Shown piece after piece: positions 1,184 through 56,700 of a stretch of DNA of 64,000 nucleotides. The DNA is from Macrocystis pyrifera (Eukaryota; Sar; Phaeophyceae; Laminariales; Laminariaceae), in assembly GCA_031763025.1 (NCBI GenBank), contig JASSKH010000017.1:6171361-6235360 (forward strand). Direction: 5' to 3'. Each line of letters starts with the position of its first letter. The first letter of the stretch is position 1. The notes beneath the pieces were generated by a model that did no database searches, was not told the origin of the DNA, and worked only from the letters and a program-made list of their open reading frames with translations. The translations under genes and the position numbers were made by a program.

Positions 1184-4100
1184 CTGGAGTTCTGCGTTCT
1201 CGCCGAGCGTGGCCTCTAGAAGCTGCTTCACCTCTGCGCTGGCGTGCTTGCCGCTAGCTCGTCCCTGCACAACCGGGGGGGGGGCGTGAGCGAAGGTTGG
1301 AAAACAATGTTCAGGAGACCGATTCTACGATGATTCCGTCTCAGAAGCGCGGAAGGGAGGGGGGGAGAGGGGAGGGGGGAGGGGAAAGGGAGGACACATC
1401 ATACCCCATACTTTAATGATAATGCCACCACCAGTGCCCCTGGTCACTGAAAATTATCGGTTACGTGAGAGGTAGGAGAGCTGCTGAATATTCAAGAATC
1501 GTTTGTTGTCAAACTGCTCCAATCCCAACACGGCGTTTTTCCATTGGAGACACAGTGCGTACGTAACTGTGTTGAAAAACGATTTGGACATGCATTATCG
1601 CCGTTCAGAGGTGTGGGAATGGGTTTTGAGGAGCCGCATCTTCGACTCATGTTCTAATTCGTGGAATCGGGGTTTCCACGAATTTCCCATAATTCTGCAT
1701 ATACGGCTCATCAGAGTGGGCTAGTGTTATGATACTGCTTTGTATGAGGTTGAAAGCCCGGTAATTACCTGGGTTCAGCCACTGGGAACGTATTTGTAGT
1801 ACTTGGAAGGTGTATCTTCGATGGAAAATGGAAAACCAGGGGTTTTCCAGAGGCGCACGAGCTTGGTCTCAGTCTCCGCGTGCACGAAAGGAATAAAACT
1901 GCTCTTTTTCTATAGCTAAGCAAGCAACACACGTGAGTACCAATGATTACCAACTTAAAAGGCAGACCTGCCTTGGGATACTAAGTGTCCCGCAACCGTT
2001 GATCTTAACACGTGGCTGTGTTGAAGAACAACATCACAGATGTAGCTGAGTTGAAAAACAACTTTGGAAATACATTATCATACCCAACTGTGTTGGAAAA
2101 ACAATTTGGAGACGGAGCATTACATGGAACTGCTGTGTCCAGAACAAAAACTGGAGGTGCAGTATAGCGCGGAACAACTGGGTTGAAAACAAGACTGGAG
2201 CCACACGACTGCGTGCTGTGAACACCTTTTCGTCGTCTCCATCCTTCAGTCCTTCGTCCCCCTCCTCCTGCGCCAACATACCCTCGCCCCCGCCGCCCTT
2301 TTGAGCCCCGTGGTCGCGCGGCCCCCCCCCACCCTTCCCCTCCTGTTTGCCAGCCTCGTCGTCATCCAGATGCACGCTGACGGCCGCATCGACACAGGAA
2401 GGGTTATTGACGGAAACATAATCGGCACAGGAAGGCCTGAGGATGATGTCTTGCAGCTCTCGGCAGCACTGGAGGGCTGAGATGCGATCCAGTTCCTGAG
2501 CGAGCAAGAGGCGGGGGGGGGGGGGGGGGGGGTTGTCTCATGTGTTGCTAGCCTTATTAATAAGGCCACATTGACCACGCACCTCCTTCGAGACGGAGCA
2601 CACCGTTCCCACTCCCAACGGAGACACTTCCAGCCTCTGGGCGCTCAGTACGTCTAGTTTCTACGAGGTACGTGTTCGCATACCGTAGTTTTTTTTTAGG
2701 CGGAAATAAATTGTCGAAACGGAAGCGTGTGCATGAACGTATTCTGCAATTTTTTGTGATGCAGGTGGGAATGAACAGGTAGGTACGATGATGTGGCCGG
2801 GATGACTGACGAGTTTCGACGAACTTCGGCCAAGTTTCGACCATGTTTTGACGAGTTTCGACGACGTTCGTCGAGTTTCGTTGATGCTTCGACAAGTTTG
2901 ACGAAGCTTGATGCACCCACCCACCCACCCACCCACCCACCCACCTACGCACGCACGTACCCGTACGCACTCAAAAGAGATTTATTTTAGTGCCCAAATA
3001 TATCGTTGAGTTATGGTACGGCTCCTATACCTCTGGGTGGAGAGGAGGACGAGTGCCCACCCCTCAGGACAAAAAGGAACCAAAAGTAGTACACAGAACA
3101 TTTAAAGCAGATTTGTACGCCTCATATAGTGAAAAAAGAATGGGGGCTAAAGATAGAATAAGAACTAATAACTTCATGCCGATACCGTACAGCAAGCGGT
3201 ACTACAGTCCGTAATTCAAGACAGCGGCTTAGGACTTAAAAGTAGAAGAAATCATAGAGGAACGTGTAGTGAGAAGGAAGGAGCAAGAAGACCAATTGAG
3301 GTCGGTAGAGATCAAGCAGGATGTACGCGCAGAAGGGAGATATTAGATTTCGTGCAGAGATTTTTCTTTTATCTCTTGGCGTCCCTCGTCTTTCTTTGTT
3401 CGGGGAGTGTTTGTGAGCGATCAGCGATGAAGCTACTGTAGTCCAATAGCCTATTAGCCTACGTAGTCCAACAGTCTACTGTAGGCCAATACGTTTGTTT
3501 TTTGCTCCTGTTTCCCTTGGTTCTCTTCTTTCGTGGAGTGTTTATGAGTGATCAACGTTGAAGCTCGTGCTGCACAGTATCGGATGGCGAACGCAGTCCA
3601 AATCATAGTAATTAGTACTAGTAGTATTGTTTTCGACATCCGAGTGAGACGATTGTAACCGTAGTGTCCCACCTCAAGAGCCTCCTCGGCCTCGTGCGAC
3701 CCGTCGACGAGGGCCTGCGCAAGCACCGCGCACGCGTCTCTGTCCTCCTCCGTGGGTGGCCGCATGGTGTGGAACGCGTGCGCTGCTTCTACCGTCTTTT
3801 AGCAACAACAGCAACGAAAACAACGACAACAACAACGGGAAAACAAGATCGTGAGGGGGCGGGGTGGTAGTTCCAGAGAAGAAAGGAAGCAAGGAAAAAG
3901 CAGCGGAGACCGTCAAAAGAGATCAAGCTTGATCATTTACTGGTACCTAGGGTGTATTTCCAGTCCCATTCGCCGGCCGCACTTTGGCGCTACGACAGTG
4001 CGCACGCATCTGGTTAATACGGTATATACGCTGTGGTGAATGCCAATGCTCGAGGCGGAGATAGGTTGGATGCGGGAGGGCACGGCGGCAGGCGGTGGGG

Positions 4101-7100
4101 ACGGAGCGTGGTATGACGCTACTGCAGAAGACAGATGGACTCCGTCGTGAGTGACGCCGGCGATAGGGTTCTCGCAAGGGATGCCTTTGGCGCGCTGATT
4201 TTCGTCATTGAAGGGGGGGGGGTACAGTAGCCCTTTGGCGTGGAAACAAAAAAACGAAGCATGTGTTTGCCTCTGTCTGTATTTTCGAACACAGCGCTTC
4301 GAGAGAACAACGGCATATACAGCAACAAAAAAGGGAGTATTAGTATTCTGTTGGGCCACCGGTAAAAGGTTGACCAATCACCTACCCAAGCTAAGCCTTC
4401 TCAAAACTATGCCAGTATATGCAACGGTCCTCACTACCTCGTAGCGTGTTATGTGTGACATGCATGTTTGTCACCCTTACAGTGTGCAGCATGATGATCT
4501 TCAACGTCGATAGCTCAGAAACATTCCCATGAAGAAAAAAAAAAAAGAAGAAAATCAAGGGAAACAAAACAATGGGAGTATTGTGAGACTAGCGAGAGAA
4601 CCGGTGCCGCTTGCGTCCTGCGCATTCAGCGAACTTTTGATAGGGTCAGCTTCCATGCCCAATCGAGATGAAGCGTTTGCCTCCGCATGTTTCATACGAG
4701 GTTCCGTAGACCGGTCGTCGTTCGTGCGCAGCAGTGGTTCTAACCTCGAGCCTTGTCGTTGCCGCCTCGAGGTCGTCATCCTTGTCCCTGATTTCGCCGG
4801 CCAAAACCCTCAAGAGGTCGTCTTTGGCCTGAGTAATCGTATCCATTGAAGAGCAAAAGCACAAAAGCGAACGGCACGTGCAAAAAACGCGCATGCGAGA
4901 TCAAACTGTGCGCTCTTGCAGCGGTGATCGATGAGTAGAATCTTCGCGAAAAATGGTGCCTAAAATAAGCCGCAAAACACGCAAGATAAGACACCCCCTG
5001 CGGCATGAATTTTCGTGTCGATTTTCTCCAAAGCAAAGGTGGAGCACGCACAACGAACACGGTGGCCTTAGAAGGAAAGCTAAGTCTCGTCAATCTAATT
5101 TTCCATGGACACATCGCTCGGCGTTTCCCCCCCCGTGCTCTCGAGAAAATCAGCTCGGCAATTCGTCCGAGGGGGTGCGTTACCTTATCACCCGGTGTGA
5201 TGGTGTTATACGGTAAGAAAATATGGAGATGATCCGCCCTAGGCCCGAGGTTCGTCACGACGAATACGCAAATGACAACGTTCCTTTTTATGTCGTCGGT
5301 TTCAAGATGGAAATAAAAACACACACTGTGGTCCTTACAGCTTTCTTTGAATTTGGCAGGCATTATTCACACAGTTTTATCATTAATAACACGCAGTTCG
5401 GTTCAGTACTGCTGACAATTAAAAGGGAAACCAATACCACGCGACGCGACGCGACATCAATACTCTCCTTTTTTTTTCAAAAACCTTCTGAAAGTCCTCC
5501 TTCCTAAACCAGGCGATGCAGGTGCGGCGTTTGAAAACAAGCGGTGTTTTCCTGTGTGGAGTCGTAAAACGGAACTTGAAGTACGACCGCTATCATGACA
5601 TGCACGTATAATACGACGACCTAACCACTGGTGACAAAATAATTCGAACACTTCAATAGGGCTCATTCTTTCAGGCTTCCACGCACCATTAGGGAAGGCC
5701 CTCAAGTGTTACTCCAAATTCCAGTTTCCAAATTTCCCAAATTTACCGCCCGATAAGAAGAAAAAACTCTACGTACGAGCACGGACAAAGTAAATTTAGA
5801 ATTTGGAAAAATTGGAGAATTTGGAAATTTAGAAAAAAAAATAAAAGACGGCCTTTCGTAGGGCTCATTCCTTCGGGCTTCCACTTACCATTAGGGAGGC
5901 CCTCAAGTCGGCAGCCTCCCGCCTAAGCAAGCGCAGCTCTTGCGCGGACTCGAGGCTTTCGTCGGCAATAGGGCGAAAAACAAGTTTCCGGCAACTCTGC
6001 GCGAACCTGCGAGGGGCAAAGATGGGGGGGAGTGACGGCAGTTTTAGGGTTGCGCGCGATCGACGGCATTTTTTTTTTTTCGGGGGGGGGGGGGGGGGGG
6101 ATGTCGTGACCGACAGCGGTTAACACCGTAGACTATCAGCGTAGGTTTTTAGTGTGGAGCAACGTCGGTCGTACGCCGTGACCGCTGCTCGTTTGTTTTA
6201 GTGACCGACCCGTCACTCTCCATCTTTGGTTTCGGGGTGAAGGGATGGGAGCAAGGCGAATCGACATAAAGGGCTGCTATATAGTTGGCTGACTAGAATA
6301 AGTCGCCGGCTAGTTAATGGCTCACTAAGTATTGCAGACACGGAGTTCTACGGCCGAAGTCCCTGACCGCGAGTAGCGCGTTCGTTCGTGTCTCGATGTT
6401 AATATATAGTTGACAAAAATACTTAAGGACCGGTAAGTCAGTTAGTAATATTAATATTATCAGTTGGCTTCCACACGTTCGTTCGTGTCTCGATGTTAAT
6501 TATGGTGGACAAAATACGTAAGTGCCGGTAAGTCAGTTAGCAATATTAATATTATTATTACGGGGGGGGCATGGTAAATAAGACCTACGGTAGACACGAA
6601 AACCTATATATTTCGCTATTTTTCTGGCAATATTTGGTCCTATTTACTATGGTCCCCCGTAATAGTTGGCTTCCACATCTCCCCCCCAACCACAGAAGTA
6701 ACCTATAACGACTGTGTCCCTCAAGGTAAGGATCGTTTGAATGAAACATTGATATACACCTGTTTCTTGTATTTCGGGACAGAGTGGTAGCCGTAAGTCC
6801 AACCAGTAAAGCATGCCTTATTCATACCCCGACACACGAAGCGAGTCTTGAAAACGTCGCGTTGCGACCCACGACGGTGAGCTGCTGACCGTCTAACCTT
6901 TGAGTTTAATCAAGGGGGGCCGGGCCGGTTGAAACGACGTGCATACGTCACAATCACGATTGACGTGCTTGGTGGATACTTATAACATTGAACAAACAGC
7001 AGCTGTGAGATCGAGAAACTTCGTCGAAACTCTCGTCTTTGCAAGCTGCTGTGTGTGCTGTTACGGGGGACCATAGTAAATGGGACCAAATATTGTTAGT

Positions 7101-10100: not shown

Positions 10101-13100
10101 CAAGTCGAACCATGATTCCGCATTACCCCTCTGGACAGAAAATTAGGGGCCTTTTGGGGTGCTACTGTTAACACCTTTGAAGGCTTCCGCGCTTCGCACA
10201 TATTATCTATTTCGCTTCAGGGCAGACACCGCTACTGACCTGTACGATCTACGATCTAGCTCACTTCGCCGGGTGGGAGTGTGGGAGTCGCACGCTCTGC
10301 ATGATCTTACATACACAAATCCTGCACGACCACCCCCAACGGCGGGACAGATCCTGCTTGATCTAGATATATCGAGGGAGATATGGGTGGGAATCGTATA
10401 ATCTGCATGATCTAGGAAATATTTCCTGGTTTGAATATATACTAATAATACCATACGTACACAGATCCTGCACGACACTTCACAACGACGGCTTAGGATC
10501 CCCTTGGATCTACTATCACGGGGGAACATAGTAAATAGGACCTACGGTACACACAAACACCTACACATTTTTTTATTTTTGCAAACAGTATTTGGTCCTA
10601 TTTACTATGGTCCCCCGTAATAACTGTAGTAGATATATCGTGATTTGTTCGCGGTGTGAAAGGTTCTTGCATTTCCGTTCAGAGTGATACCATGTTAATT
10701 AAGCCCATGATCGAGGCGGCTAAGCATACGTCTTCGTTTCCCCCATTTTTCTAGCCCCGAACATTCATACGTGCCCCCGTTTCGTTTAGTCTCTCGAGTC
10801 TCCAGTGTTCTTTCTACCTACCGACAACGGAGTCAGCTGTGTGCATGAAGAATGCAGGAAGGGCGACACGACGATCGAGTGCAAGCCGAGGCTACATCAA
10901 TTCTCCCGCGGATCGCACATTACACGAACCCCATGCCCGTACCCTGGACCCCGTGGCATCGCGTGCAACGAAGGAGCACTACCGTTGAATGCTGTATCGA
11001 CCCGGCTAACCCGCCCAGCACCTTCCTGTTTTTCGCGTTACGCCTCTGGTCCCTGTCTACTCCTACAACCCCCACCCCCCCACACTTTACCGCCCAAGAG
11101 TACAAATACCTACGCCATTTTTTCGAGTTATGTAGACCCTTAGACAGTCACAGGTGTTCTATGAGTCCTTCACCCCCCCTTCGCAGTTCTATTAATACGA
11201 CTACGGCCATGCATGAGATCGAGTACATCTCTCCTATCGAGTACACCCCCCCCCCCCCCCCCCGAAAACCCAAGGTACTCCGTCCCGGTATTGTAGGGAT
11301 GCGAGGGTCTACAGGCATGCGACCACAGCCATGCATGATATGAGTTATGAGTACACCCCCCCTCCCTCCCCCCCTCATTCACCCGCATGGGTCGTTCTTG
11401 TACATCCTCTCGTATCCCGCCAGATCGACCAGGGTAAGCTCGGCCCGGCCCACGATCGTGCGAGTCTCGCTACGAGCGTCACCGTCACCACCCAGGCTGC
11501 CACCACCGATCGCTTCTTCTTCTTCTTCTTCTTCCCGCTCAGAGGACACGGCCAAAGTGAAGACGGCGTGGCTGCGCGAGGACGTGCGGTTGGCCACCGT
11601 CTCGCCCATGATGCGGCGCGAGTTTCCCATGAAAAACAGGTTCAGGGCATCCTCTGGACGAATATAGCGGAGGTGCGGCAAAAACAGTTGGCGGGAGGGG
11701 GGGGCGGGGGGGCGGGGGGGACGCGGAGTCGGTCAGTTTCTTTGCACCATGATGCGGTGTGAGTTGAGCGTAGCACTGGAGGGTGTTGGTAAAAAACATT
11801 GCGGGGGGGGGGGGGAATAGAGCGGGGTTGGTCAGGGTCTTGCCTCATGATGAGGCGCAAGTTGCCCATGAAAAACAGGCTCAGGGCGTCCTCTGCAGGT
11901 ATATAGCGGAGGTGCGGAAAAACAGGTGCGGGAGAGGGGAACAACGCGGGGTCAGTCAGCGTCTTGTCCCATGATGCGGCGTGGATTTCCCATGAAAAAC
12001 AAGTTCAGGGCGCCTTCTGAATGTGGCGGAGGCGTGGTAAACTAGTGGCGAGGGAAGGGGGAAGGGGGGTAGTCTAGTTAGTGCTCAAGCAATGCATGCG
12101 TTGGCAGGGCATTTGATGAATGACTTCCCGTCTTTCGGTGGTCGACAGAACCCGGCCTTGTTTTGTTTTCACGGCGAGCGGAGAAGACTGGAAACAAATG
12201 GGCTCCACGTATGCGTATAGTAAAGCCTTTGCGAGAACGCTGTCTCTTCAAGGGATATACTGCCTCTCGTTTGGATGCAGGACACAAACAACTGAAATAC
12301 TGGGCTCTCGGCTTTCCCATCATGACCCACCGTGCACCAATTGGTGTGCCTGGATAGATCGAGTTTACTATGTGTTTCATGTATCGCGACGTGCAGTTTG
12401 ACCATGATGCAGTAGGCAGAGCGGTTTAAGAAAGCCCTGGACAAGATGAAAAAGCCAGGGATAAGAGCAGTCAAACCGGCTTGTCATGAAAAGCAGTCTG
12501 ATATATATGGTTATTTGTATCTCGAAAACGCTCATTTTAATTTAGGCATGCAACGTCTCCACATCACTAAATAACCCTCCAGTGAAAAACCCGGGCGCCG
12601 ATACAGAGCAGTCAGTCACCATGCCCTTCAACTCGGACACAAATTATGTACTGTTGAAGCGATAAACTGCCGGTATCGTGTTTCGCTCGATTTTCGCGAC
12701 TCTAGAGCGTTTCGGCTATAAGATATAGCAGGTATATATAAATTAATGTTCGAAGCCTGGCAATGAAGCAGAAATATTGTAGTTTCCGCCTATCGTCTCG
12801 GCCTGGAAGCGGGATCCGTTCGCCTCCGGTCTCTGTGTTCGCCCTCGCTTTCTCGCCCGCTCTTCTCGAGGATCGCGTTCCTCGGCCTCCGCTGGGCCTA
12901 TTCCCGCGCGCGCAATCTCGGGGATCGCCCGCCGTAGCCAAGCGCAGCGACCCTGAACAGCGCTTGTCCCGATGGATCTTGTGGAGATGGAAAAACATCA
13001 AGACTGTTTCCTGGAGACAGCGAGATCCTACTTTTCTGTATCCGCCCCCTCCGCCTTGCCTCCTCGGGACACGAGTACAGTGCAATAGTAAGAAGAACAG

Positions 13101-19760: not shown

Positions 19761-19866
19761 TTACGGGGGTCCATAGTTAATAGGACCTACGGTCTACATA
19801 AAAACCTATATATTTACCTATTTTTACTAACAATATTTCGGTCCTATTTACTATGGTGCCCCGTAA
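19761..19866. mobile_element. Palindromic MITE, copy 5
   Basis: 106 bp, TA on both sides (AATA|TTACGG, CCGTAA|TAGT). Confidence 0.85.
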
Positions 19867-22742: not shown

Positions 22743-22972
22743 GGGGGGGGGGGGGGGGGGGGAGGGCGTACTTTTTTATTGCTTGCCTTGGTCATTTGAC
22801 CATTGACCACGCATCTCTTTTGAGACGGAGAACCGTTCCTACCCCTATAATGGAGACGCCTCTAACTTTTAGGCGCTTCATAACGTTGTTTCTATATATC
22901 ACGTATAAAAGTTTCGCTAATCCTACCCCCTTCCTGTTTCGTCGCCTGTGGTCACCATATCTCTTAGGATAG
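22743..22972 (+). mobile_element. Family B repeat, copy B2 (longest)
   Basis: Poly(G) head at about 22746-22762, then 'ttattgcttgccttggtc', 'gaccacgcatctcttttgag', 'ggcgcttcataacgttg' and a tail 'cctgtttcgtcgcctgtgg'. About 230 bp. Matches copy B4 over its whole length. Confidence 0.8.
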
Positions 22973-22984
22973 GGGGGGAGCAGC

Positions 22985-23426: not shown

Positions 23427-26400
23427 GGACCTGGATTTTTTGAGGCATCAAATGAGGGTGCTGATGATGATGTCGACCGAGATAGCGCCGGGCCGGTGTT
23501 GTGGCCGTGGCAGTCCGGTGCGAATGCCTCGACGCGGAAGGTGCGCGTCGACGCCCAGCGCCATGCGCCCTGAATCCTATTGTTTATGGGCCCTTTTATT
23601 TTGACGGGACATCAAGCGTCGCCTCAGAAACGCCGTCCACGGTGAGGAGGGGGTTACATTTCACGGTTCAAGAGGGATCCTGTAGTTTGTATTTTTTGTA
23701 GGTTTTGTAATTTTTGCATTTTTTTGTCTTTATACATTTTTGACTTTTTTTTGTGTTTCTCAACACTCCGTCTATTCCTTCTGTTTGGCGCATCGGCCCG
23801 CTGTCGCAGTTCTCGATGCGAACTATCGCTGCAGGGCTGGTGTGGTTTAATGGACAATATTTTTTGTAGCTTTACTAAATTAATTCAGCGGCGTGTGATC
23901 GAGTACGCTCCTGACTTACCCCGTCCCCTCTCTCCCGCCGTGGCATCCTCAGCGCGGATATCCAATCCGGACAAGGTGTTTTTTCTGCTGCAGGGGGAGC
24001 CCATCTAACTTTCTCATATGACTGCACCATGCGGTACTGCCTTTACCATGCAATGGAAACCCTCACGGTTTCTCCGCTCGGGGTAGATAGCCTCCACAAC
24101 CTCTCTCCTCCGCCCCCTCACCCCTGCCGCAGGTCCTTCCCGACGTTCCCGAGACTCCAAGTGACGACGGCCACAGCGTATGGCGAGACCCGGGAAGCGA
24201 TGCCGATGACAGCCTCCCTGCAAGCGGACACCACCGGAGATCGCAAAGCGCGGGCGGAGTCGAAGGCATTGCGAAAAGTGTGGCGTCCGCAGCAGCTGCA
24301 GTAACGGCAGCGGCAGGTTATCAACACAGTTCGGCCCTTGGCGGTGGTGGTGGCGGTGGCGGTGGCGGTGGCGGCGGCGGCAGTGATGGCGACAATGCGA
24401 TGCCTTCGTCGCCGAGGAGCCGAGCCGCGGGAAGGTCCGGAAACGATGAGCCCCGTGGAAGAAATGGGGCAAGCGGTGGTCTCAACGACAGTCACCACGG
24501 CAATCACAAGAAGCACGAGAACCAGCAGCAGCAGCAGCAGCCACATCATCAACCCAAAAACATTAACTTCCCCAACCTGTTCGCAGCCTGCCAGCCCGGC
24601 CATCACCCGCAGGTGCCTTCTCCGCCCTCGCCCTTGCCGTCGCATTTGTCGAAAAGGAATCCGCCGATGTCCGCCGACCGACCCCGCCGCCGCGGCCGTG
24701 ACAGCTGCGACAGCCGCGCGTCCGCAGAATCGCATATTAATTCCCCACCGACCTCCCCTCACCGCCAATCCGAAGCTTTCGACGGCGACGGAGCTGACGT
24801 GGACCGCTTCGACCGCTCGAACGCCAGTAGTGGCGGCAATGGCGGCGGTAGTGGCTGCAGCAGTGGCCGCGGCAGCGGCGAAAGTCGGCAGTCCGAAGCG
24901 GGGGCGGCGCGAGGGTCGAGAAGCGGCTGGACGTCGGACGACGGCGGGGCCGGAGGGCACGGGACGGGGTCAAGGGGGAGCCGGCGGCGTCTCCGAGCGC
25001 TCACCGCTTCTTCCCCGGGCTCGCCGGTAGTCTCGGCGGCGGTCGCCGGGGGTACCGCGGAAGGAGAAGGTGACGACGGGCTGCACCAGGAGACCGCGGG
25101 TGTCGTGGCGGCGGCGGCAACGGCGGCGGCAGCGGCAGCGGCAGCGGCAGCGGCGGCGGCGGCGGCGGCGGCGGCGACTGATACTAAAACGCCAGGCGAC
25201 GGTAGGGGTGGGGGCGGGGGGCGGACTGTCAGCCGCTGGACATCGATCGACAAATGGTCTCGGGCGCTGGGCACCTCGAGGCGGCGAGGGTCGCGACAGC
25301 AGGTGAGGGTGGTGGTGGCGCGGGTGTGGGGGTGGGCATTGTGCGTGGTGCGCGGTGCTCGTTGCAAGTTAGTAGTTGGCGCCTAGTGCTGCGGAGGTGG
25401 AAAGGCTGCCGTTTTTTGTTGGCAGGGGGTGGTGGCCGCGCCCCGCTGCTGCATTGTAAGTTTTTATTTTCCTGCGGACGGGCGATTGGATTATCGTCAG
25501 TTGGTTAAGCCTCGACGACTGATGCCATGCATATTTTTTATTGATATGTGAGAGTACTGTGCCGGTCGGTGGGGGACAGCGAGTCTTGGTGAAAGGTAGC
25601 CAAAGGTGCGCGTGAAAAATGTACAACTACTTCTACTGCTCTAGGTTTAGTTCGCGCCCGGGGCGATAGGCGGAGGAAGCGTCGGTGCCACCGTGGCGCG
25701 CCTGAAGGGCTTCCACGCACAGGATGCAAGACGCGAACAGTCCCTACTGTAGTCCTGTCGGTCCACCAGTGAGGGCGGCGCAACCTCGCACGTTTCGGTT
25801 CCGTCAGCAAGACATTGAAAAAACGGACTGGTAGACTTAGCGGTGCTGCTTTAGACCTCAGGTCGGCGCGATTACTTTGGTTCTCGCCCGCACCAACCTC
25901 TCCCGGCCCCCTTATTGTCACGCCCTGTTTTGATACCACGGCCACGTCTCCTGCCCCCCCTCCTCCCCCACCTTCGACCTCGATAAGTTGGAAAAATCTA
26001 TGTAGTATACAGAAGAACAAGTAATGAGCACCCAAACGTAGCAGGTGTCTCGATCAGGAGTTTGAACGGTGCTCCGTCTCGAAAGGGATGCGTGGTCGAT
26101 GGTCATATGACTAAGGCAAGCAACAAATGAGTACCCCCATCCCCCCCCCCCCCCCCTCCTCCGCCTCCTTATCCCCACCACCCTTCCTTCCCACGCCTCC
26201 GCCGGGCCCCCTCGACCTCTCCCGGCAGCCGAAGATGAACTTTTTTACGGAAGACGACTTCGACGAGCTCCTGCACAGCACCTTCTTCATCAAGATGTGC
26301 GACGATGCTTCCTGGCTGTACGTCGAAGAGCAGCCGCACCACCCGCAGCTGAACTGGCTGCTGTCCTTCTGGGGAGGATTCAAGATCGCGCCAAGGTTCC

Positions 26401-28945
26401 CCGGAGAGGTTGGTGCAAAACGAGAGGAAACGGGACAATAGAATACGTGCGTTTTTTTTTTTTTTTGGTAGCGCAAGCGGGCGTGTTGTCTTGAGTTTGC
26501 TCCTGTTTGTTGTTGCTGCTATTGCTGTGGGTGGTGGTGGTGATGGCTGTGTTGTTGCTGTTGTTGCTGCTGTCGTTGATTCTTGTCGTTGTTGTTGTTG
26601 TTGTTGTGGGTGTTGCTGCTATTGCTACTGCTGGTGGTGTTTGTTTTTGGTGTTGGTGTCGAGTGATAAGTGAGTTCAATGCCTTATCTGCGACTTTTTT
26701 TTGCGTTTTGTTTTTCGTCGACTGTGTGCACGCACGCACACCCGGCGGCTGCAGGTGACGCAGCACGAGGCCCACCGCATGCTTTTCCAATGCGAGAACG
26801 GGCGGCACAAGGGCCACGTGCGAATCCGATCGAGGGCGACCAACACATTCCTCTTCTTCCTCGGTATCAAGCATCCGCTCACATGGGTGGTGAGTACTGA
26901 TGAGCTCGTCGCCGCCGTACGCGTAGCTATGAATATTGATACTCGTATCATAGCTATGGGCATTCGTTATCACTGTACAGTAGCACTGATGCCGTGTGTA
27001 TATTCATACGAAGCATTCCTTTTGGTCGATGTGCACCCGGTGTGGGCGTTTGCTAGTTTGCGCGTGGAGACCTGCTTGTCTCTGATCCGCTAGTTTATTG
27101 TTTTGCGACTTGCTTCTGTTTGAGCAAGATTGGGGCGGTAGAGAGCAAGACTGGGGCGTTTTGGCCCCTCAGGTGAGCTCTCGAACACTACGGAGGGCCT
27201 TCGTAGTCGGCCATTTTTGGGCCAACCCAAGATGGCAATTCCTGTCTTAAAAGGGAAATCAAGTGGAGAGAACCACAATAAAAGAACACGCGACCAGAGA
27301 GTCGAAAGTGGAGTGAACCACTTGAGTAAAAGAACGCACGACTAGGGAGGGGGACAACATGAAGTAAAAACCAGGCGCTGATTAGGGGCTTGATCAACCC
27401 CGGAGGATGTTATCGGCGGGAGGCCGTATCGAGCCCAAAGGTACTTCTTCTTTTGTTCCAAATATTTAGGTCGAACCACTGAGCTACTCAGTCAGCGCTA
27501 ACTGAGTAGCTCAGTGGTTTGACCTTAACATTTGGAACTACCTTGTCTTGCCTTGTCTTGCCTTGTCTTGCCACACGTTAACATTCGCCTTCACTGACTT
27601 GGTTTGGTTTCATGGGTTAGGCCGTGTGTCTCGCTGTGTTCGATGGTTTTTCCTCGTCGGCCTGGCACCGTGACACACTGCTGTCCCGTCGTAGTTGTGT
27701 CTGGTACGGTCACATACTTTGGTGCCTTACCTCGTAGAGTCGTTTAATTTATTTTACAATGCATACCGTCGGACAAAAACAGCGAGGAGACGAAATGTTC
27801 GGCTCCAATCTCACCTGGCGCACCCACTCCACGCAGGAAGGGTCTCGAGTGCCACTGTGTCGATGTAGCCATTGAAAACCTAGGCCGAAAATCGCCTTCC
27901 CATCAGTTAATTCGACGCTGTCATCCAAATGCAAAGGCTGCGTCACAAGCAATTCTTGACGGGATGCAGCTCACCCTCCATGCGACTCGCCCAACACCTC
28001 ACGGCGCTTCGCGCTTGATGCAAGCAATGTCTGCCTGGTCGGTGAAAACCCGACGTGCTCCATCCCGGCATTTTGGAGATGCGATGCATGACATCGAGTA
28101 CACCCCTCTCTACCCCCCCCCCTCGAGGCGACGATGTGACAACTGACAAGCGGGGCAAAAAACAATTCTCTACCCCTCCATCCCCAACCTGCCCTACGTC
28201 TACGGCCATTCATGACGTGGGTACACCCCCCCCACTACTCCCCTCCCCACACACATGATAATGAATATGCGAGGGTCTATGGTCATACGACTACGGCCAT
28301 GCATGATGATGAGTACACCCCCCCCCCCCCCCCCCTCCCCCACATCCTAGGAGTTACAGTAGATAATGTCCACAGGCGGCGAAACAGGAAGGAGATAAAA
28401 TCCGCAAAAAGTTTCCATGTAATATATGGAAACAACGTATTAAGCGCCCAACTGTTGGAGGTGTGTGTTAGGGATAGGAACAGTGCTCCGTCTCGAAAGG
28501 GATGCGTTGCCAATGGTTAAATACCCACGGCAAGCAACAAATGAGTACGCCCCCCCCCCCCCCCCCCCCCCCCCCACAGGCTTGGGATCGAGACGTCGTG
28601 GGCGGCGACTGGGAAGACCTGAGGCTGGAGTGGGTTGGCACACCGGCGGGCCCAGACGGCGTCCTGGTCGGAGACGAGCGCGGCCGAGTGATCATCCACT
28701 GCCGGTCACTGAACGCGTACGTGTCGTGGAACGGTACGGGCTTTACGCACGTCCAGGCGAAAGAGGGTGCAACGGTTTTCATGCTCCAGCGCATGTCTCA
28801 CTCGTCCTCGTCGGCGACGTTGTCGCCCGCGAGGCCCGGTCTGTCTCGCCGACTCCCGGGGTTAAACAGAAGGCATAGTGCGGGCGGGGGTGATGGTGGT
28901 GGTGCAGGTGGTGGCAGTAGTGCACGGGAAAAGGACGCCAGGTAG
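23427..28945 (+). CDS. Unidentified gene, 3' portion; low-complexity region plus conserved-looking C-terminal domain
   Basis: Function not recognised. Exons: 23427-23540, 24133-25302, 26229-26408, 26755-26889 and 28580-28945 (stop TAG). All are phase 0 and give 654 residues; the 5' end is missing. The 390-residue second exon carries Gly, Gln and about 20-residue Ala tracts and is probably disordered. The last three exons are different: rich in aromatic residues and His, with FFTEDDFDELLHSTFFIKMC, LNWLLSFWGGFKIAPRF, HVRIRSRATNTFLFFLG and GRVIIHCRSLNAYVSWNG. The repeated short beta-strand pattern resembles a beta-trefoil (fascin-like) fold, but that is a guess. Acceptors before 26229 and 28580 use poly(C) runs from antisense repeat elements. 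A Ser/Gly-rich basic tail ends the protein. Confidence 0.7.
25990..26156 (-). mobile_element. Family B repeat, copy B3 (antisense to host gene)
   Basis: Poly(C) at 26141-26156 preceded by 'gcaagcaacaaatgagtac' and 'gtctcgaaagggatgcg', the reverse complement of the family B signature. The acceptor of exon 26229-26408 lies 72 nt beyond the poly(C), and the interval is pyrimidine-rich. Confidence 0.8.
27479..27529. repeat. Inverted repeat with tRNA A-box-like core
   Basis: 'accactgagctactcagt' and 'actgagtagctcagtggt' flank a ~10-nt loop. The right arm contains TAGCTCAGTGG, a match to the RNA polymerase III A box. A related single arm lies at about 14510-14530. Confidence 0.6.
27850..28333 (-). 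mobile_element. Cluster of antisense family A copies (A8 and two head fragments)
   Basis: A8 runs from poly(C) near 28113-28128 down to about 27850 and keeps 'gaagcgccgtgaggtgttgg' in reverse complement. Two further heads, about 40-60 bp each, lie at 28199-28237 and 28262-28333, each ending in its own poly(C). All are antisense to the plus-strand gene, in its last intron. Confidence 0.75.
28345..28575 (-). mobile_element. Family B repeat, copy B4, forming a splice acceptor
   Basis: Full-length copy. Its head is the poly(C) run 28550-28575, immediately followed by ACAG and exon 28580-28945. The poly(C) is thus the polypyrimidine tract of that intron. Tail 'caggcggcgaaacaggaag' matches B2. Confidence 0.85.
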
Positions 28946-29324
28946 ACGACGATAGACGTCGTTTTTTTTGTATTGGTTGTGGATATTGTTATTGGCATGA
29001 ACCACATACTTTAGTAGATGTGTCGACGATGGCGGAGTCATTTGGGTTTGATTTCGTGCGTCTTGAAAGTGTAGACGGGGACGGACTTTTATTTTGTTTT
29101 GTTTTATGCGCCTTAGCAGTGTAAACAGTGGCGGTTTCGTTGATCTATTCTATGCGTATTTCACAGTGTTTAGATGCCTGGCCGTTTCGTGTTTGTTTCG
29201 TTTTTATTCGTCTGAGTATCACAACAGTAGTGGACGATGTTGTTTGGTTAATATTTTTTGTTCTGTGAGTCTTCAAGTCTCGAGTGGTTGCTTGTGTGTG
29301 TTTTGTTGATATGGCGGGGAGGGG

Positions 29325-29401
29325 TGGGAGCGTGCTCGTTTTGTTGCTTGCCTTAGTCATTTGCCCATTGACCACGCATCCCTTTCGAGACGGAGCATGG
29401 G
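29325..29401 (+). mobile_element. Family B repeat, copy B5 (head fragment)
   Basis: G-rich start, then 'ttgttgcttgccttagtc' and 'gaccacgcatccctttcgag'. The sequence then diverges. Confidence 0.7.
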
Positions 29402-31514
29402 TGAGAGGACGCGAAGTAGACGATAGTTTCACCTCTTTCGCCGTGTGCCTTTGGGGCTTGAATGGGGGAAACGAAACAAAATTACGACTACAACGCCAGC
29501 CACATGAAGGAAGCAGCCCGGAGATCTCCGACACGGGCTCAGCATGACACTAGTCGTGCAGCTGCTCGCTCCTACTATATGCGGTGGGCTGCACAGCAGT
29601 AGCACTCGTCTCGATAACCAAGATGGGCCCCGAACTATGTATTTACTCTTATGTTTGTACAACCATATCTTGAGCTGATCACTACAGTACACATATATAT
29701 ACCTGGTACCTGATATGTTCTACATGGCGCTTCGCTCCGCGGGCGGCCTATGCCGCCCGCTACGTTCGCTCAGGAAGAAAAAGTACATAATATATGCGAA
29801 GCGGACAGAGGTCCATGATTGAATTTACTCCTGTAGTTTTTTTATGAGTGCTTGTAGTTGCAAAGTGGCGACTTGATAATGCCAAGAGTCCCCCGCCGCC
29901 GCCATGCTTCAGGAGAAAATAGGTCGGAAGGCACATACGCTTTGCGTCGAGGGCGTTTTGCTCACATGCCGTTCGTACGTACATACCCCAGGTACGTAGG
30001 GTACTGATTCTCTTATTTTGAGTAACTAAATAATTGCTGTATGTACGAAAAACAGCGAAAGAGAAAGCACAGCACAGCAGCAGCACCACGCTAAAACAAT
30101 GAAATGGACCCGAAATTTCGGAAAGAAAAAAAAATCCTCGTCCTCTCTTATGTAATAATTCTCAGCCTGATTGGAACACCTTGCACTAGTCAAAAAAGAA
30201 AAAAATCCAACAGCAGAGCTTCCCTCTCAGCCCCGTACGCCGTCCGCCCCTCTACGATCTCGCTACCGATTCGGTCCGGGCAAAGCTTCCCTCACTCTCT
30301 GCCACAGTGAGCCCTGTCGCCCGCCTCGCGTGAGGCCCGGTGCTCACCGTGGCCGTGGTTCGCCAGTTCGACAATGTCGGTGCTCAACCTGCGTACCTCT
30401 CTCTTTGAGCTTCAAGCCCGGTCGCAAAAATAAACACCGCTTGAATCTTATCTTGCAATCCCGAGCGACCCTTATAAACTCGTAGATACTCTATCAGAAA
30501 CCGCAAATGGAGGCCAGACAGAGCCCATTCATGCTTCCCTCGTGTCTCGAGGCACACGCGACGCCTGGCCAAGAAACCGGCGACCACGCTCCTTGCAATC
30601 CCCTCTCTACCGGCCACCATCCGCCGACACCCGCGACGGCGCCGGGTTCGCCCGCGATGCCGTCCTCCGAGTACACGCACGCACACGAATCGAAAGAAGA
30701 AAAAAGGAAAGAAGGACTGAAAGCCAAGAGAAATGGAGAAAACAAAGACCCGCTGGAAAAGTCCGGCAAGTAACAAAAGGAGGCGATTCCCAGGTGGGAG
30801 CTCTGAGGGGCCAGGGATGTACCAACCGAGCACGCCTAGAGATCGAGATATCTACAAGTAGTTCTATAACATGTCCCCCCGTGGACGGATGGTAACTCCA
30901 CAGCTGGGGCAAAATTTTGGTCGCTATTCCCTGGGGTTATCCTGGGGTATCGAGGGAGATCTACCCCGCATGTTGTATGATTCAATGGTCTAGATTTTTC
31001 AAGGAAAGACCTATCACCCATCTTATACGATTTTTACGTACGTCGCTTCTTCATGTGGTGCCGGGTGGGACCCGTGTCATCCATATGATCTGGCGCACGT
31101 TTCCTGGACTTGCATCTTCGCTGCGTGCAGATCCTGCGCAACCTCTCACACTGGCAGGTGAGGAAGTAGATGATCTAGATCATGATCTATCTATAGATCA
31201 AGACCTGTCCGAGGTGTGCAAGGTTTTTGATAATAGTCGGTCGTCCCGTGAACAGTGTTTTGATTTGATCCGGAGCGAACCCGCCGCGTCCGTCCCTCTG
31301 CTACACCGGCTCTCAAAGACTACAAAAAAACAGGCGCATTGTCGGTTTCGTGAGGGTCACCCCAGAGCACAGCGTCCCCGCGATCTACGCCGCCACCCGA
31401 CAGGTTACTATCGTCGTACGAGCACCAGTTAGTAGTACATGACTAACTCAAAACGAGCGATACCGACGGTTGCCAGTAGCTGAAATCGATCAGGTCCTGG
31501 ATTTAGATCCCCCT

Positions 31515-31783
31515 CTGGAAGTGGGCACACCAGAAAACAAATCGATCAATTCAAGGCTGCCATCCATATGCAAGAAAGTCCGCCTGACAAACGGTTTTTA
31601 GTAGGATGCAGCCCACTCTTCATGAGAATCGCTGAACACCTCACGGCGTTTCGAGCTTGGTGTAAGCAATGTCTGCCTGGTAGGTGAAAGCCCGACGTGC
31701 CCCGTCCAGGCATTGTAGGGATGCTGTAGGGTCTATGGTTATACGATTACGGTCATGCATGACGTGGATACGCCCCCCCCCCA
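31515..31783 (-). mobile_element. Family A repeat, copy A9 (5' half)
   Basis: Reverse-complement family A from a C9 run (about 31773-31781) down to 'ccagagggggatctaaatcc', more diverged than A1/A2. Intergenic. Confidence 0.7.
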
Positions 31784-35700: not shown

Positions 35701-38700
35701 AAGCACGTGCTTGTCTGATCTGGTACGTATCTGTGATATATACGTAGTACACGTTTCCATGTGACGATTTGGCACCGTGTGTATGAATATATACACATGA
35801 TCCAACCCATCGATCTCTACGACCTATCATTACGGGGGACCATAGTAAATACGACTAATTATTGTCAGTAAAAATAGCGAAACATGTAGGTTTTCGTCTG
35901 TACCGTACGTCCTATTTAATATGGTCCCCCGTAAATAGCAGGCCAGGCAGATCATGATATGTCCGACTTGCGTACATGGCACGTCTTGACACGTCGCGGC
36001 AACGTCGAGAAAATGGCGGGGCGGAGACTTACGATAGTGCCGAGCACCGAGTGCATCGTGTGCGGCAGGATGTTTTTCCCCTGGTAAAGTTTGTTGGCGG
36101 TGATAAAAAGCAGGCCCAGGGAGGCGAACAAGGATGCCAGGATCTGCATCAAGAGGCAGAGACAGAGGGGGAGGGAAAACACGGAGAACGTTGATATACC
36201 ACAGGTACATCGCAACCAAAACAAGAAAAACGGCAGAGCACACGATTGATATTTATGGGGGGGGGGGGGAGGTGTACTCATGATCATGCATGGCCGTAGT
36301 CAGATGGCCATAGACCCTCGCATCCCTACAATGCCGGGACGGAGCACGTCGGGTTTTCACCGACCAGGCGGACATTGCCAGCACCAATCGCGAAGCGCCG
36401 TGAGGTGTTGGACGAGTGGCGTGAAGGGTGAGCTGCATTCTACTCGCAACCGATTTTGCGGTGGATTTTCTTGCGTATGGATGACGGCGCCAATGATTTT
36501 TCTATTTTCTGGTGTGGCCACTTTCAGAGACAGCAGTGGGTATGCGTGAAGTACTACGTAACTGCCTGGTGGATGCCTTACCACATACACACTACGTGAT
36601 ACGATCATCCCCCTTGTGCGGAGTTAAGGTTCTTCCAGCACAATAATGATCCAACTCGACCGCCAGCCGTGGTGACCGCCAAAACAAACACAAAAACGGC
36701 ACCCTGGTTGTCTAGCTCACGTAGTGAGAGGCGTGTTTTACAGCGTTGTCGCTAACCGATGCCAACCCAACCTATATATACCAGGTATATACTACGGAGG
36801 GGGGGGGGGGGGGGTACTCATTATCATGCATAGCAGTAGTCTTATGGCCATAGACCCTCGCATCCCTACAATGCCGGGACGGAGCACGTCGGCTTTTCAC
36901 CGAACAGACAGATATTGCTTGCACCAAGCGCGAAGCGCCGTGAGGTGTTCGGCGAGTCGCATGAAGGATGAGCTGCATCCTACCAAGGACCGATTTTGAG
37001 GCGAATTTTCTTGCATATGGATGACAGCGTCAATGAATTAATTAATTTTTGGTGTGGCCACTTCCAGAGACAGCAATGGGTTTACTATGCAACGGCCTTG
37101 TAGGTGTCTTACCATATACAAACTACGTGATACGCTCATCCCTCTTGTGCGGAGTAAAGGTTCGCCCAGCACAAAAATGATCTAACTTGAACGCCAGCCG
37201 TGGTGACCGCCAAAAAAAAAAAAAAACGGTCTTCCCTCTGGTTGTCTAGCTTACGCCGTGAGAGGCGTGTTGTACAGCGTCGTCGCCAACCGACGCCAAC
37301 CCAACGTATATATACCAGGTATACAATATAGAGGGGGGGGAAGGGGGCTACTCATTTGTCGCTTGCCTTAGTCGTTTGACCATTGACCACGCTTTCCTTT
37401 CGAGGCGGAGCTTATGTGGGGGGGGAGGCGGAAAACAAACAAAGGGACACATACGCAAGAAAACGGGACAGTCGGAACAGTCGACAACAAGGCGACAGAA
37501 ACGACGGCGACATATCACACACCCGGAGTACCTGGAATACCTGTAACGTAACGCAAGGAAGAGAACACCAACCTCCCAACCTCCCTCGGTCCAAAAAGAA
37601 GCAAAAAAAAAAATAAGGGAGAGGCGAGAGAAAAAAAAAAACTCCCCTCCCGCCCACCTCGCGTCGTTGACACGATGTGAATTGGGACAAAACAAGGAAG
37701 ACAACCTGCTTCACCACATATTAGGGCCATGTCGCCGAATCAGCAAACGGATCAGTCGTCACCGTGGGCTCTATGACCGGCCGTCGCTACCCTTCATTTC
37801 TCTTCTCTAGAGAAAAGCAAAGCCTTTGTTGCTTTCTTCTCTAAACGCCTCCGGAAGCAGGAGGTCAACATGAAGCAAAACAAGCCGATTCATCACGTGC
37901 CACCACCCCCCGCCCCACACCCCCTCTTCCCCCCTTCGCCGTCACTTACCCCTATCGCTCATCCTCGTCTGAAATTTTTCTTCTGAAAGTTCTCTTACTA
38001 TTTTTTTATGTTTATCTTCAGATCAGATTCTCAGAATTTTCTTAGCATCCAGAAAGTTATCGACACCATTCTTCAGAAATTTCTTGAGAATTTTCTTCTT
38101 AATTTTTCAGTTCACTTGCCTGCAGCGTCATGTGAATCGTCCTGTTCTTCGCCTTCGTTCCGTTGGACATGATGGGGCCGAAAGAGTCCAGCAGCAGATG
38201 GTTCTTGTACGCCACCACTCCTTCTGGCATGAACACCATGAACGCCAGGGCCATGCACGTCGGGTGCCTGCAAAAAAAAAACAACGCAAGAGGCACAGAA
38301 AGATGGCTGGTTTATCTCAGATGTTATAATCAATACTGCTGTACTTGCTACCTGTGATTGTGAGGGCCGGGTAGACTGCTGTAGACCCTTGGCCCAGCTC
38401 CGGCAGAAACGGTTGAAACATTTTAGAGATTGGAAACCCCAGCTCTAACCCTGCGACCCCGACCGCCCGGGGAAAATTCTCGGAATTATGATATAAGGAG
38501 CTATTATATTACTACGGGGGAACCATAGCAGTTAGAAGCAAATATGGTGTGTGAACATAGGGGGATACAAATTTTTTGGGTTCATCGTGGGTCGTAATTA
38601 CACCGGTAAGGATTGCACTTTTTTGGTTTCTGAGGAAACATTTTCTGACCGGCTAAGCTCCTCAAATGAGCAACTACCGCTACTTGTATGATACTTTCAA

Positions 38701-40413: not shown

Positions 40414-40455
<42 letters not shown>

Positions 40456-41828: not shown

Positions 41829-41935
41829 TTACGGGGGACCATAGTAAATAGGACCTAAGGTACACACAAAAAAACCTATATATTTACCTATTTTTACCAA
41901 CAATATTTGGTCCTATTTACTATGGTCCCCCGTAG
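41829..41935. mobile_element. Palindromic MITE, copy 9
   Basis: 107 bp, the best-preserved copy: both ~27-bp ends match, TA on both sides. Confidence 0.88.
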
Positions 41936-41939
41936 TAGC

Positions 41940-42300
41940 TCGTCTACATCGCGTGTAGCTCACGCCTTCATAACACATGTGTAGGTGAGCTACCTCCTAC
42001 AGCCCAATGTTTGAAAAACAAGAGCGCGTGAGCTATCGCCTACAAAGCTCAAGCCAGGAAAACATGTGCAGATGAGCTATCGCCTACACAGCTCAAGCCA
42101 GGGAAAAACGTGCAGCTCGTTTAGCTCCTCGTCAGCTCACCCAGGACAAATACGCGTAGAGGAGCTATCCTCCATATAGCTCTAGGTGTGAAAAATATGT
42201 GTAGAGGAGCTGCCCTCCTATAGCTCCTAGAGCTCAAGCCGGGTAAACATGTGCAGCTCATGGAGCTCGACCTACCCTCGAAAAGAGCAACAGTAGCTCG
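41940..42300. repeat. AGCTC-rich degenerate tandem array
   Basis: Units of about 45-50 bp with 'gagctatcgcctacacagct' and 'caagccagggaaaa'. It abuts MITE copy 9. Confidence 0.7.
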
Positions 42301-46708: not shown

Positions 46709-47848
46709 CTTTTTTTAGGCAGCAGCGACAGAGCAGCAATGCTCAATTGGGATGTCCGTGCGCGGAGGTAGGCGCCATCACAGGCCAAACTACGGCACAG
46801 TCTATTGCGCCGGTAGGAGGCTGGATTCGACGACGAAGGAGGAGGGAGACAGGGCGTCGACGAGCGGGGAAGAGACGGATTGAACTCACCCTGCGCGAGA
46901 ATTTTTGTTTTTTAGATCTAAACCGCAAGTGCGAGGAGCCTTTTGTTTTTCGGGAAGGGGAACCGACTGGAAGGGAGTGGCAACTAGAGCACGTGCAAGG
47001 GAGAGGGTGGATTGGGCTAAGGCGATGAGGCGGCCATGAAGAACGGCAGCAGGACCGCACACGGAGACCCATGACCGGCGCGCACACCATCACGAGAGAA
47101 GCAGTCATCGTTTTTTCTCTGGTTTTTTGTTTTTCACGAGGCAGTAGTATGTACTTGTTATTGACGTCACTGGTCTTTGTACTGGCGAGTTGTATACCCT
47201 TCACGTGGAATGACCCCCGCAATTATCAGGGACGGGGTATCATAGCTGTGCTGCACCTTTTGTGTCAGACAGCCCGGGAAGAGATGGCGATCGTTGATAT
47301 TCGTGTGGTGGTTTTAGGTTCGATTGCCCCTTTTTTCACTGCATATCCGCGAGCCGTCACTCTGACAGCACCCCAGACAGCAGGCGTGTTTCTCTCTGTG
47401 TTCACGACTACCGTGCGTTTCGTACGGTGCAGGCAGTACTGCAGACAGCAACCGCTGTAGTCAGCAGCCACGAGTTGGTTAGTGGTGGGAACGGGAGGAA
47501 CTCTTATGTTGTAGTTGAGGGGATATATACCCGCGGCCATGTATTTAATAGTTCAGTTTGCACATTGATTTCATTTCATCTTGTGTGCGCGTCCGCCTTC
47601 TTCGTCTCGTGCATTTTTAGGCAGCAGAATTTCGTTTTTTTTTTTTTTTTTTTTTTTTTCGGATCTTCCTAGGGTTCCAGCACCTTCGTGTGACCACGGA
47701 CTCCTTCGTTCGAAAGCGAATGTGAGAACAACAACAACAACAAACAACAACATACATACACCGGAAGAACATCAGACACAAACATACCTGCTTGGTAGAA
47801 CTGTGAGTCGGTACGTCTTCAATCACCAACTAGTTGTAAGTCGTATCA

Positions 47849-47953
47849 TTACGGGGGGCCATAGCAAATAGGACCAAGTATTGTTAGTAAAATTATGGAA
47901 ATATATGGGTGTTTGTGTGCACCGTAGGTCCTATTAACTATGGTCCCCCGTAA
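47849..47953. mobile_element. Palindromic MITE, copy 10
   Basis: 105 bp; its internal sequence is closest to copy 3. Confidence 0.85.
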
Positions 47954-53700: not shown

Positions 53701-56700
53701 GTTCCTGCCCCTCTTCGACCATGGCATCGCCATTCCCATCCTCACCCCCCGCGCCCCCCTCCGCCTTCCCCCCCCCTCCGTCCGACGCGGTGGCTTCTTG
53801 TTGTGTACCCTCGCCACTATCGGCTCCAGCTCCAGCCACTTCGCTGCCCCCCTCCCCCTCCCCCTCCTCCTCCCCACCGTCTTCGACATCCATGCCGGAT
53901 GTCGGCGCTGCCGGCAACGCCACTGCCGCAGGAACAGCAACAGCATCACCAGCACCAGCAGCAGGTGCCGCGTCTTGCAACTCCCCTTCTCCGTCAACGT
54001 CTCCGCCGTCTTGGCCTTCCGCGGGCATCGGCGTCACCGCCCCCACCCCCGCCCCAACCCCCGCCTCCGCCGCCGCTGTCACTGCCCCGGTTACCCCCGA
54101 AGAGCCGCCGGGAGAGGAGGACGCCTCTGGCGGCGAGGGGATAGCGGTGAGGGGGTTAGGCCCGCCACCCTCCGCTGCTTCCGAAGCCGAAATTTCGTCG
54201 CTCGCACCCCCATCATCGTCGCCGCCGCTTGCAGCCGAGGCTGGCGGAGGCGAAGCCTTCTCCGGAGCGGCGGCGGCGGCGGCAGGGGCTGGCGCGGCAC
54301 CGTTGGCGACAGCACCGCCACCACCACCACCACCACCACCACCTTGCTTGTAAATTGCTGACGGGATGATACCCGCTTGGATCTTCTTTGAGAGCATTTC
54401 GATCTGTTGTCCGGACCACACCGCCGCGCGGACGAGTCAGAGGGAAGGGGGTATAGAACGGAGATCGAGGGGAGGGGGGGGGGGGGGGGGGGGGGGGGTT
54501 AAAATTAGGGGAGGGGGGTGTACTCGTGTCATGCATGGCCGTAGTCGTACAACCATAGACCCTCACATCCCTACAACGCTGGGACGGAGCACGTCGGGTT
54601 TTCACCGACGAGGCAGACATTGCTTGCACCGAGGGGGGGGGGGTGTACTCGATAGGAGAGGTGTACTCGATCTCATGCATGGCCGTAGTCGTATGACCAT
54701 AGACCCTCGCATCCCTACAATGCCGGGACGGAGCATGTCGGGTTTTCACCGACCAGGCAGACATTGCTTGCACCAAGCGCGAAGCGCCGTGAGGTGTCCG
54801 GCGAGTCGCATGAAGGGTGAGCTACATCCTACTAAGCACCGCTTGTGAGGCGGACTTACATATGGATGACAGCTTCAATGAGTTAGTTTAATTTCCGGTG
54901 TGGCCACTTCCAGAGACAGCAATGGGAGGACTATGTAACTGCCTCTTGGGTGCCTTACCTTGAACACTACGTGATACGATCAATTCCCTTGTGCAGAGTA
55001 AAGGTTCTTCACTTCGCACAAAATATCTAACTAGACGACCAGCTGTGGGCGACCGCCAAAAAAAAAAAAAAAAAAAAAAAAAACGGTACCCTGGATGTCT
55101 AGCTCACGTAGTGAGCGGCATGTTTTACAGTGTCGTTGCCAACCGACGCCAACCCAACCCATATATAATATGTATATAATATATAATTGGGGGGGGGGGC
55201 GGAGGAACTCAAGTCGCGCGACTTGGAGGGCCTGCCCGGAGCACTAGGTTCGAGCAGTACGTGAGGCGGCACACAAGACTTTCCCACCCGCCAGCAGTCG
55301 TTCAGGGTACCCCCCCCTCCACTCCCTCTCAACATGTGTACCGGTGAAGAAAACCGTACGCCTTGGGACCAAAAACTCCTCGTAGGTCTTGCTTGCACAT
55401 GAAATATCAGAGTAAGCCGCGGCGGGTTCCATTCCACCTTTGCTTGCGCCGCAAGGTCAGATTTTTTCCCTCGCCATCGCGCGACCAAAGCTCCGAAACA
55501 CATCCCGATCCCCAGAACAGCAAAAGCGAAACTTTCCACAGCTACAGGTCACAGCCACAGTCACAGACCAACACTCGACCACGATGTGGGCAACACACTC
55601 CGTGTGCGTACTTGCATACAAATCTGGATGGAAACGCAAGCACCGAGCACCGCTTGGGTATTCGTAATGTTAATAATACATGATTATTCTTAATAAATTC
55701 CGTCCAGAATGGAGTGGTACCGCAGTAGATCATAACCCTCCCACACAACCACTGTCGACAGAGGATGCTCCGCTCGTCGCCCCCCCTACGATACCCCGTC
55801 GAGCGCTTGCTGGAATCCCCACCCCTCCCTCCCCGAAGAGCATCCACATCACCCCACGGTGATATATGGGTAAAGTCAGACCAGGGCAGGAAACAAGAAA
55901 GGCTATCCTGCTTGCTTGAAGCAAAGGCAGCCTGCTTGAAGCAAAGTTGGCACAAAAAGCGAAGTCGGTCCACTTGAAGCACGGCCAGTCCGCTTGAAGC
56001 AAAAGACCAGACTGGCTCCTTTCCTCCACATACATACGAAGTACTATTGACAGAGAGCAGCAACAAAGACCCCCCCCAAGCTCCTCGTGAGTCCGTGCCC
56101 GCCTTGACAGTTTTGCGTGCGCACGCCAAGCTAAGCCAAGACAATTAACCAAGCCACATGGGCGAGACAAATATTAATAGTAAAAAAAGGCCAAAGACAC
56201 AAGACAAGTAGCCCAACCAAAGCCCAACCGAACGAAACCAAACCAAAAAGCGAAGCCAAGCAGTGCCAACCAAACCAAACCAGACCAAACCAAGCCAAAA
56301 CTAAATCAAAACCAGATAAACCAAAACCAAACCAAAACCAAAAACAGAATCAAGCCAAAACCAACCCAGAAGCAGCAAACCAAATCAAACCAATCCAAAA
56401 TCAGCACAAACAAAACCAAAACAAAACCAAAACAAAACCAACCCAACCTCGGCGGCGGGGGGGGGGGGGGGGGGGCGTTCTCTCACCTCCTCCACCGTGG
56501 TAGCCTTGGCGATGCGGTCGGCGTAGATGGCTCGGTGCTCGTCCGTCAGCTTCTGCTCGGCCGCCGCCGGAGCCCCCGGGGTGAACGTCTTGGCCTTCTC
56601 GGCCTGCTTGGCCACGTCCTGCATCATCGCCTGCCCCGCCTGCGATCGCGTCAGTCTCCTGGCCGCCTCTCGCTCCTGTCGTTCCGGAAACACCCCCCCC

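Follow-up and report, generated by a model that had tools for sequence, protein, structure and literature searches.

We analysed a 64-kb stretch of the Macrocystis pyrifera genome (contig JASSKH010000017.1, positions 6,171,361 to 6,235,360; 52% GC), referred to below as the window, from which all results are drawn. The window is eukaryotic as judged by its intron-split genes, and it contains long introns, triplet repeats and a TTAGGG-like repeat. Its genes include those of U2A', a kinesin and a cytochrome b561-like protein, and interspersed with them are two families of short repeats, A and B, whose copies adjoin a run of G. The initial annotation described both families as a G-run followed by ACTC, and this signature is present far beyond chance: a pattern scan of the window gave 15 overlapping matches at nine distinct sites (0.01 expected). 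Neither the site at 7658 nor the one at 55189 is an element head. The sequence at 7658-7678 is G16-TACTC, otherwise unlike the family; it was left out of the copies and is perhaps an extremely truncated copy or a chance occurrence.

Copies were collected by comparing the window with itself and by profiles built from the G-run heads, which gave 18 copies at 10 loci. Named by the head start and strand of the G-run, 12 copies are A-type (11230-, 11359-, 28106-, 28229-, 28322-, 31777-, 36269+, 36808+, 54514+, 54658+, 63308-, 63865-) and six are B-type (2529+, 22763+, 26139-, 28553-, 29328+, 37343+). The loci are listed below; the strand given is that of the G-run, and the inferred element RNA would have the opposite one.

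2513..2661, plus strand: B copy with G20, 17 nt from the proposed exon 2495 of a minus-strand gene
11195..11374, minus strand: two truncated A copies in an array (heads 11359, 11230), lying in the sense direction of the kinesin gene and ~8 nt from a donor
22743..22970, plus strand: full-length B copy with G20, its far end meeting G7
25992..26156, minus strand: truncated B copy, plus-strand C16 lying 72 nt upstream of exon 26229
27908..28575, minus strand: B-A-A-A array (heads 28553, 28322, 28229, 28106), plus-strand C26 running into ACAG before exon 28580
29316..29397, plus strand: heavily truncated B copy, in sense relative to the plus-strand gene, provided the gene extends here
31513..31782, minus strand: truncated A copy, its far end meeting a G-tract
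36257..37411, plus strand: A-A-B array (heads 36269, 36808, 37343) in an intron of the minus-strand cytochrome b561-like gene
54474..55188, plus strand: array of two A copies (heads 54514, 54658) in the minus-strand U2A' intron before exon 54403
63016..63869, minus strand: array of two A copies (heads 63865, 63308) outside assigned genes

The ends of copies 28322, 28229 and 54514 were taken from the profile match, as the aligner overran into the adjoining copy, and for the 54.5 kb array 55188 was used as the far end in place of the aligner's 55183.

Full-length copies measure ~525 bp (A) and ~210 bp (B), too short to encode a reverse transcriptase and an endonuclease. The A profile matches B copies (best 2.7e-7) and the B profile matches A copies (best 4.6e-8), in both cases over approximately the first 80-100 positions from the G-run, and a head alignment of 15 of the 18 copies has a common core of ~80 bp adjoining the run. 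Judged by these matches, A and B are one superfamily with a common end at the G-run and divergent sequence beyond it, rather than the two separate families of the initial annotation.

Constant ends, variable ends and flanking G-tracts

The G-run end is kept in all 18 copies. Because the head profiles used to find them detect head-bearing copies only, a control for headless copies was needed; two full-length A units, used together as the query, gave no A match without the G-run end in the window. The opposite end varies. Far ends of A copies fall near consensus positions 36, 39, 56, 89, 120, 231, 260 and 291, with four copies at 518-523, and those of B copies at 68, 69, 124 and 147, with two at 209 (the B consensus itself comes from two copies). 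Copy 28106 has an internal deletion besides its truncation. A constant end combined with variable truncation is the standard picture for retroposons, in which the constant end is the 3' end. The copies are thus most simply 5'-truncated retroposons that had been read on the wrong strand, and what had been called a poly(G) head would be a poly(C) 3' tail. The inferred element RNA would then read ...ATGAGTAC(A/G)CCCC..., with poly(C) as its tail; on that strand a simple-sequence tail does lie beside the constant end, partly perhaps derived from the target. Likewise, copies previously called antisense to their genes would be elements in sense, carrying a C tail.

G-tracts are overrepresented at the far ends of the loci. 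Of the 10 loci, six have a run of at least four G within 25 nt (background 0.075, P = 2.9e-5) and four a run of at least six (background 0.014, P = 6.9e-6), the background being 20,000 random positions outside arrays. Several widths and thresholds were tried, of which 25 nt with at least four G is quoted; widths of 15 and 30 nt agree in direction. C-runs of at least four were found in the far flanks of none of the 10 loci. The far G-tract is absent at the 2.5, 28.5 and 29.3 kb loci, and at the 26.1 kb locus it starts ~22 nt out and is counted at the wider width only. Near flanks past the head run are also G-rich (0.40 versus 0.26 G, P = 4.5e-4).

Five of the 10 loci, together holding 13 of the 18 copies, are head-to-tail arrays joined by G-runs. 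Within arrays, six of eight copy ends reach the next G-run within a few bases (11359, 28553, 36269, 36808, 54514, 63865). In the window these observations point to one kind of target, G-tracts, which occur both in the far flanks and where array members join; the two occurrences together make a G-tract the likely insertion target.

Host genes and nearby splice acceptors

The genes that hold the elements differ in their support. The minus-strand U2A' gene matches PDB sequences (best 1.3e-27, with a partly mistyped query) and Pfam LRR_9 (3.9e-21 and 7.3e-13). Its exons 54403 (C-terminal) and 56675 lack a family match and are presumed to belong to it from our own reading against U2A' sequence; exon 56675 has a strong codon score. 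The kinesin gene (~15.2-9.5 kb, minus strand) has Pfam matches of 6.4e-16, 7.6e-6 (below cut-off) and 2.9e-14, and its last exon, at 9.5 kb, has none. Both Pfam matches of the cytochrome b561-like gene (38.3-36.0 kb, minus strand; E = 4e-4 at exon 38267 and 0.08 at exon 36143) fall below the curated cut-off. A plus-strand gene at ~24-29 kb and a minus-strand gene at 2-5 kb are supported by codon usage, weakly at exon 2495, and have no Pfam family above cut-off. Frame scores are 0.55 for exon 26229, 0.29 for 28580 and 0.08 for 2495, versus 0.42-0.80 for three training exons.

The initial annotation placed five of the poly(C) stretches just upstream of 3' splice sites. These distances hold: 17 nt at 2495, 72 nt at 26229, 4 nt at 28580, 70 nt at 54403 and 113 nt at 36143. 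The sequence at 28550-28580 is C26-ACAG/GCTTGG, in which the initial annotation saw the acceptor itself. Two of the five runs, those at 28580 and 2495, occupy the position expected of a polypyrimidine tract. The further proposal, that elements supply this tract, is plausible at 28580, where the final 40 nt are 70% C and end in ACAG, and at 2495, where C20 is followed by GCCTCTTGCTCGCTCAG and the final 40 nt are again 70% C. Acceptor 36143 has its own pyrimidine-rich CCCTCCCCCTCTGTCTCTGCCTCTTGATGCAG, the 72 nt before 26229 are C/T-rich, and at 54403 the poly(C) (-70) precedes a branch-like CTGAC motif (-34); at these three sites, therefore, supply by the element is not needed. C-rich sequence free of elements precedes the acceptors at 57311 and 11652, and the poly(G) that the kinesin array places in the RNA lies close to a donor. 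Two acceptors serve as counter-examples:

59304..59327, minus strand: U2A' acceptor with G19-ACAG in the RNA and no element; an alternative CAG lies 9 nt on
56675..56702, minus strand: U2A' acceptor with G10 17 nt upstream and no element, placed by own reading and codon score

We think that the elements insert into C-rich tracts close to acceptors more often than they provide such tracts.

For the orientation count, 15 of the 18 copies were placed against a gene (22763, 63308 and 63865 have none, and the placement of 31777 and 29328 is loose). By copy, 12 are antisense and three sense in the earlier usage (P = 0.035), where the initial annotation counted ~11 and 2; by locus the numbers are 6 and 2 (P = 0.29), which is no significant bias. 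An orientation excess is not established.

Several features of the window stand apart from the elements. At 11640-12060 (minus strand) a kinesin exon segment (...EDALNLFFMGN.../AEDALSLFFMGN...) is repeated serially in partly decayed form; the copies are possibly duplicated or mutually exclusive exons. The cytochrome b561-like gene has a probable GC-AG intron at 38120 (minus strand, CTGCAG/GCAAGTG), and U2A' possibly another near 57143 (minus strand, AAG/GCGAGC). Palindrome-like short repeats resembling miniature inverted-repeat transposable elements (TATTACGGGGGACCATAGTAAATAGGACC... and its inverse) lie at 6557-6667, 7038-7165, 10514-10625, 19759-19838, 35807-35934, 39718-39830, 41827-41940 and 47826-47953. 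An interstitial telomere-like (GGGTTA)n array occupies 7905-7970, and 38712-38951 is a tandem repeat of CACTCTGGCCGGATATATAAGGAA (24-bp unit, 9.5 copies).

Origin of the elements and their relation to introns

Overall, we lean towards the view that A and B are a superfamily of short non-autonomous, poly(C)-tailed retroposons that insert at G-tracts, sometimes in the C-rich tracts before acceptors. The element RNA would terminate in poly(C), and a reverse transcriptase made elsewhere would recognise the 3' end common to A and B. The tail would pair with a G-tract, which would act as both target and primer, and complementary DNA (cDNA) synthesis would proceed inward from the G-run, frequently halting early. 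Priming of this kind with early halts would leave the conserved end abutting G and the truncated end on what remains of the G-tract. G-runs of older copies could receive new copies, producing head-to-tail arrays. Read on the opposite strand, a C-rich polypyrimidine tract is itself a G-tract. Some copies would insert there and be tolerated, as the acceptor would still have C-rich sequence next to it. At 28580, and perhaps at 2495, the tail may now belong to the acceptor tract.

Several observations weigh against this view. Eight of the 17 G/C runs of at least 12 in the window carry no element, the other nine being at arrays, and the evidence is limited to 10 loci in one window. A test for target-site duplications gave P = 0.14 over the 10 loci, with G-rich flanks blurring the test. 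The RNA polymerase III B box was not found in either consensus with up to two mismatches, A-box-like matches in the A and B consensus are no more frequent than by chance, the predicted 3' stem is weak (covariation at 2 of 13 pairs, covariation term +0.29), and a partner long interspersed element (LINE) was not identified in the 64-kb window. Finally, element-free intronic tracts of at least six nucleotides comprise 12 sense C and 8 sense G across five gene spans (three of these 20 adjoin array far ends), so that tract supply alone would not force an antisense excess; G-tract supply as the full cause of orientation is unsupported by this ratio.

The arrays could instead have arisen by slippage or unequal exchange between the flanking G-runs of one old insertion, the G-run then belonging to the element at either end and not being a target. 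Full-length copies do bear G-runs at both ends. But truncated copies (11359, 31777, 54514, 37343) meet G at the break too, two arrays mix A and B, and array neighbours (85.4% and 87.9% alike) are no more similar than the other 13 pairs among the six copies compared (78.6-89.5%). The mixing and the similarity values make repeated insertion likelier than recent duplication; tandem duplication is a less likely source of the arrays, and we consider slippage improbable.

Two further explanations appeal to selection. In one, insertion or retention of elements is favoured at sites where the poly(C) acts as polypyrimidine tract for a 3' splice site, and the antisense orientation is selected for. At half of the loci a proposed acceptor follows within 120 nt, the C-rich final 40 nt at 28580 and 2495 are largely element-derived, and the excess by copy is nominally significant; it is the analysis by locus (6 of 8) that removes the bias, while three of the five acceptors have pyrimidine-rich sequence of their own, U2A' acceptors 59304 and 56675 carry poly(G), and three of the five exons (2495, 26229, 28580) are without homology support. 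We regard this explanation as unlikely. In the other, the orientation excess reflects selection against poly(G) in the nascent RNA or coding strand, where it may cause G-quadruplex or R-loop trouble, and is unrelated to acceptors. It would fit the 12 versus 3 copies and the element-free intronic runs of at least nine (three sense C versus one sense G), but these counts are tiny and sense poly(G) exists at 59304, at 56675 and in the kinesin array, leaving it the less likely of the two.

Close counterparts of A and B are the short interspersed elements (SINEs) and other non-autonomous retroposons whose 3' end matches that of a partner LINE. Like these, A and B keep their 3' end while the 5' truncation varies, carry a simple tail and, as two families, are alike near the tail only; they differ in that the tail is poly(C) and that the B box is lacking. 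A tRNA-derived SINE is unsupported, with no B box in the consensus and no match in Rfam and tRNA scans of the window. By eye, frames at 44315-45027 (plus strand) look like the C-terminal portion of a LINE-type reverse transcriptase (ETLPYGCATWNLRAEH...); the LINE-like frames at 42-45 kb have no Pfam family above cut-off. In the brown alga Nemacystus decipiens, SINEs are given as 0.0024% of the genome, and Tx1 is listed among the LINEs (PMC6418280). Exact-pattern scans for relatives of the elements in viral contigs gave no match; a 16-base element pattern gave 50 single matches in varied bacteria among prokaryote genomes, which were taken as chance and not used.

Non-long-terminal-repeat retrotransposons specific for microsatellites, e.g. 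the (TG)n-specific Togen, are outlined in PMC4640811, as is the occasional tandem insertion of the related Utopia. A and B would be similar in using simple repeats as insertion sites and are similar in their tandem arrangement, but their target would be a mononucleotide G-tract, and no reverse transcriptase was identified for them in the window. The nearest precedent for a retroposon tail serving as a pyrimidine tract on the gene strand is the antisense Alu, whose poly-T acts in this way and creates new exons (outlined in PMC2639721); A and B, by contrast, have a C tail, would be oriented in sense and adjoin exons that already exist. Introners, described in PMC9860276 as mobile elements that create an intron and themselves constitute it, likewise meet splice signals, but A and B are parts of longer introns in the three cases that could be bounded. 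The cytochrome b561-like intron of 1976 nt holds an array of ~1155 nt; the U2A' intron of 2083 nt (including a donor near 57143 placed by hand and uncertain by some bases) holds one of ~715 nt; and in the kinesin gene the array measures 180 nt, with the next assigned reading frame, by our own reading, more than 1.5 kb on. The partial analogy to introners drawn in the initial annotation thus does not hold in these introns. Open-access titles and the beginnings of abstracts gave no poly(C)-tailed or G-tract-targeted retroposon, which is weak evidence of novelty as most subscription journals lie outside that scope.

It is possible, though rather doubtful, that a poly(C)-tailed lineage targets homopolymeric G-tracts and, in a genome where C-rich polypyrimidine tracts present such G-tracts on their opposite strand, is thereby drawn to 3' splice sites, its tail having turned into the acceptor tract itself in some genes. 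If G-tract targeting is true genome-wide, the superfamily would be a mononucleotide-specific retroposon, and its targeting could explain the clustering of mobile elements at the 3' ends of introns without selection for splicing. G-tract targeting also allows one to ask directly whether elements are drawn to intron signals or provide them.

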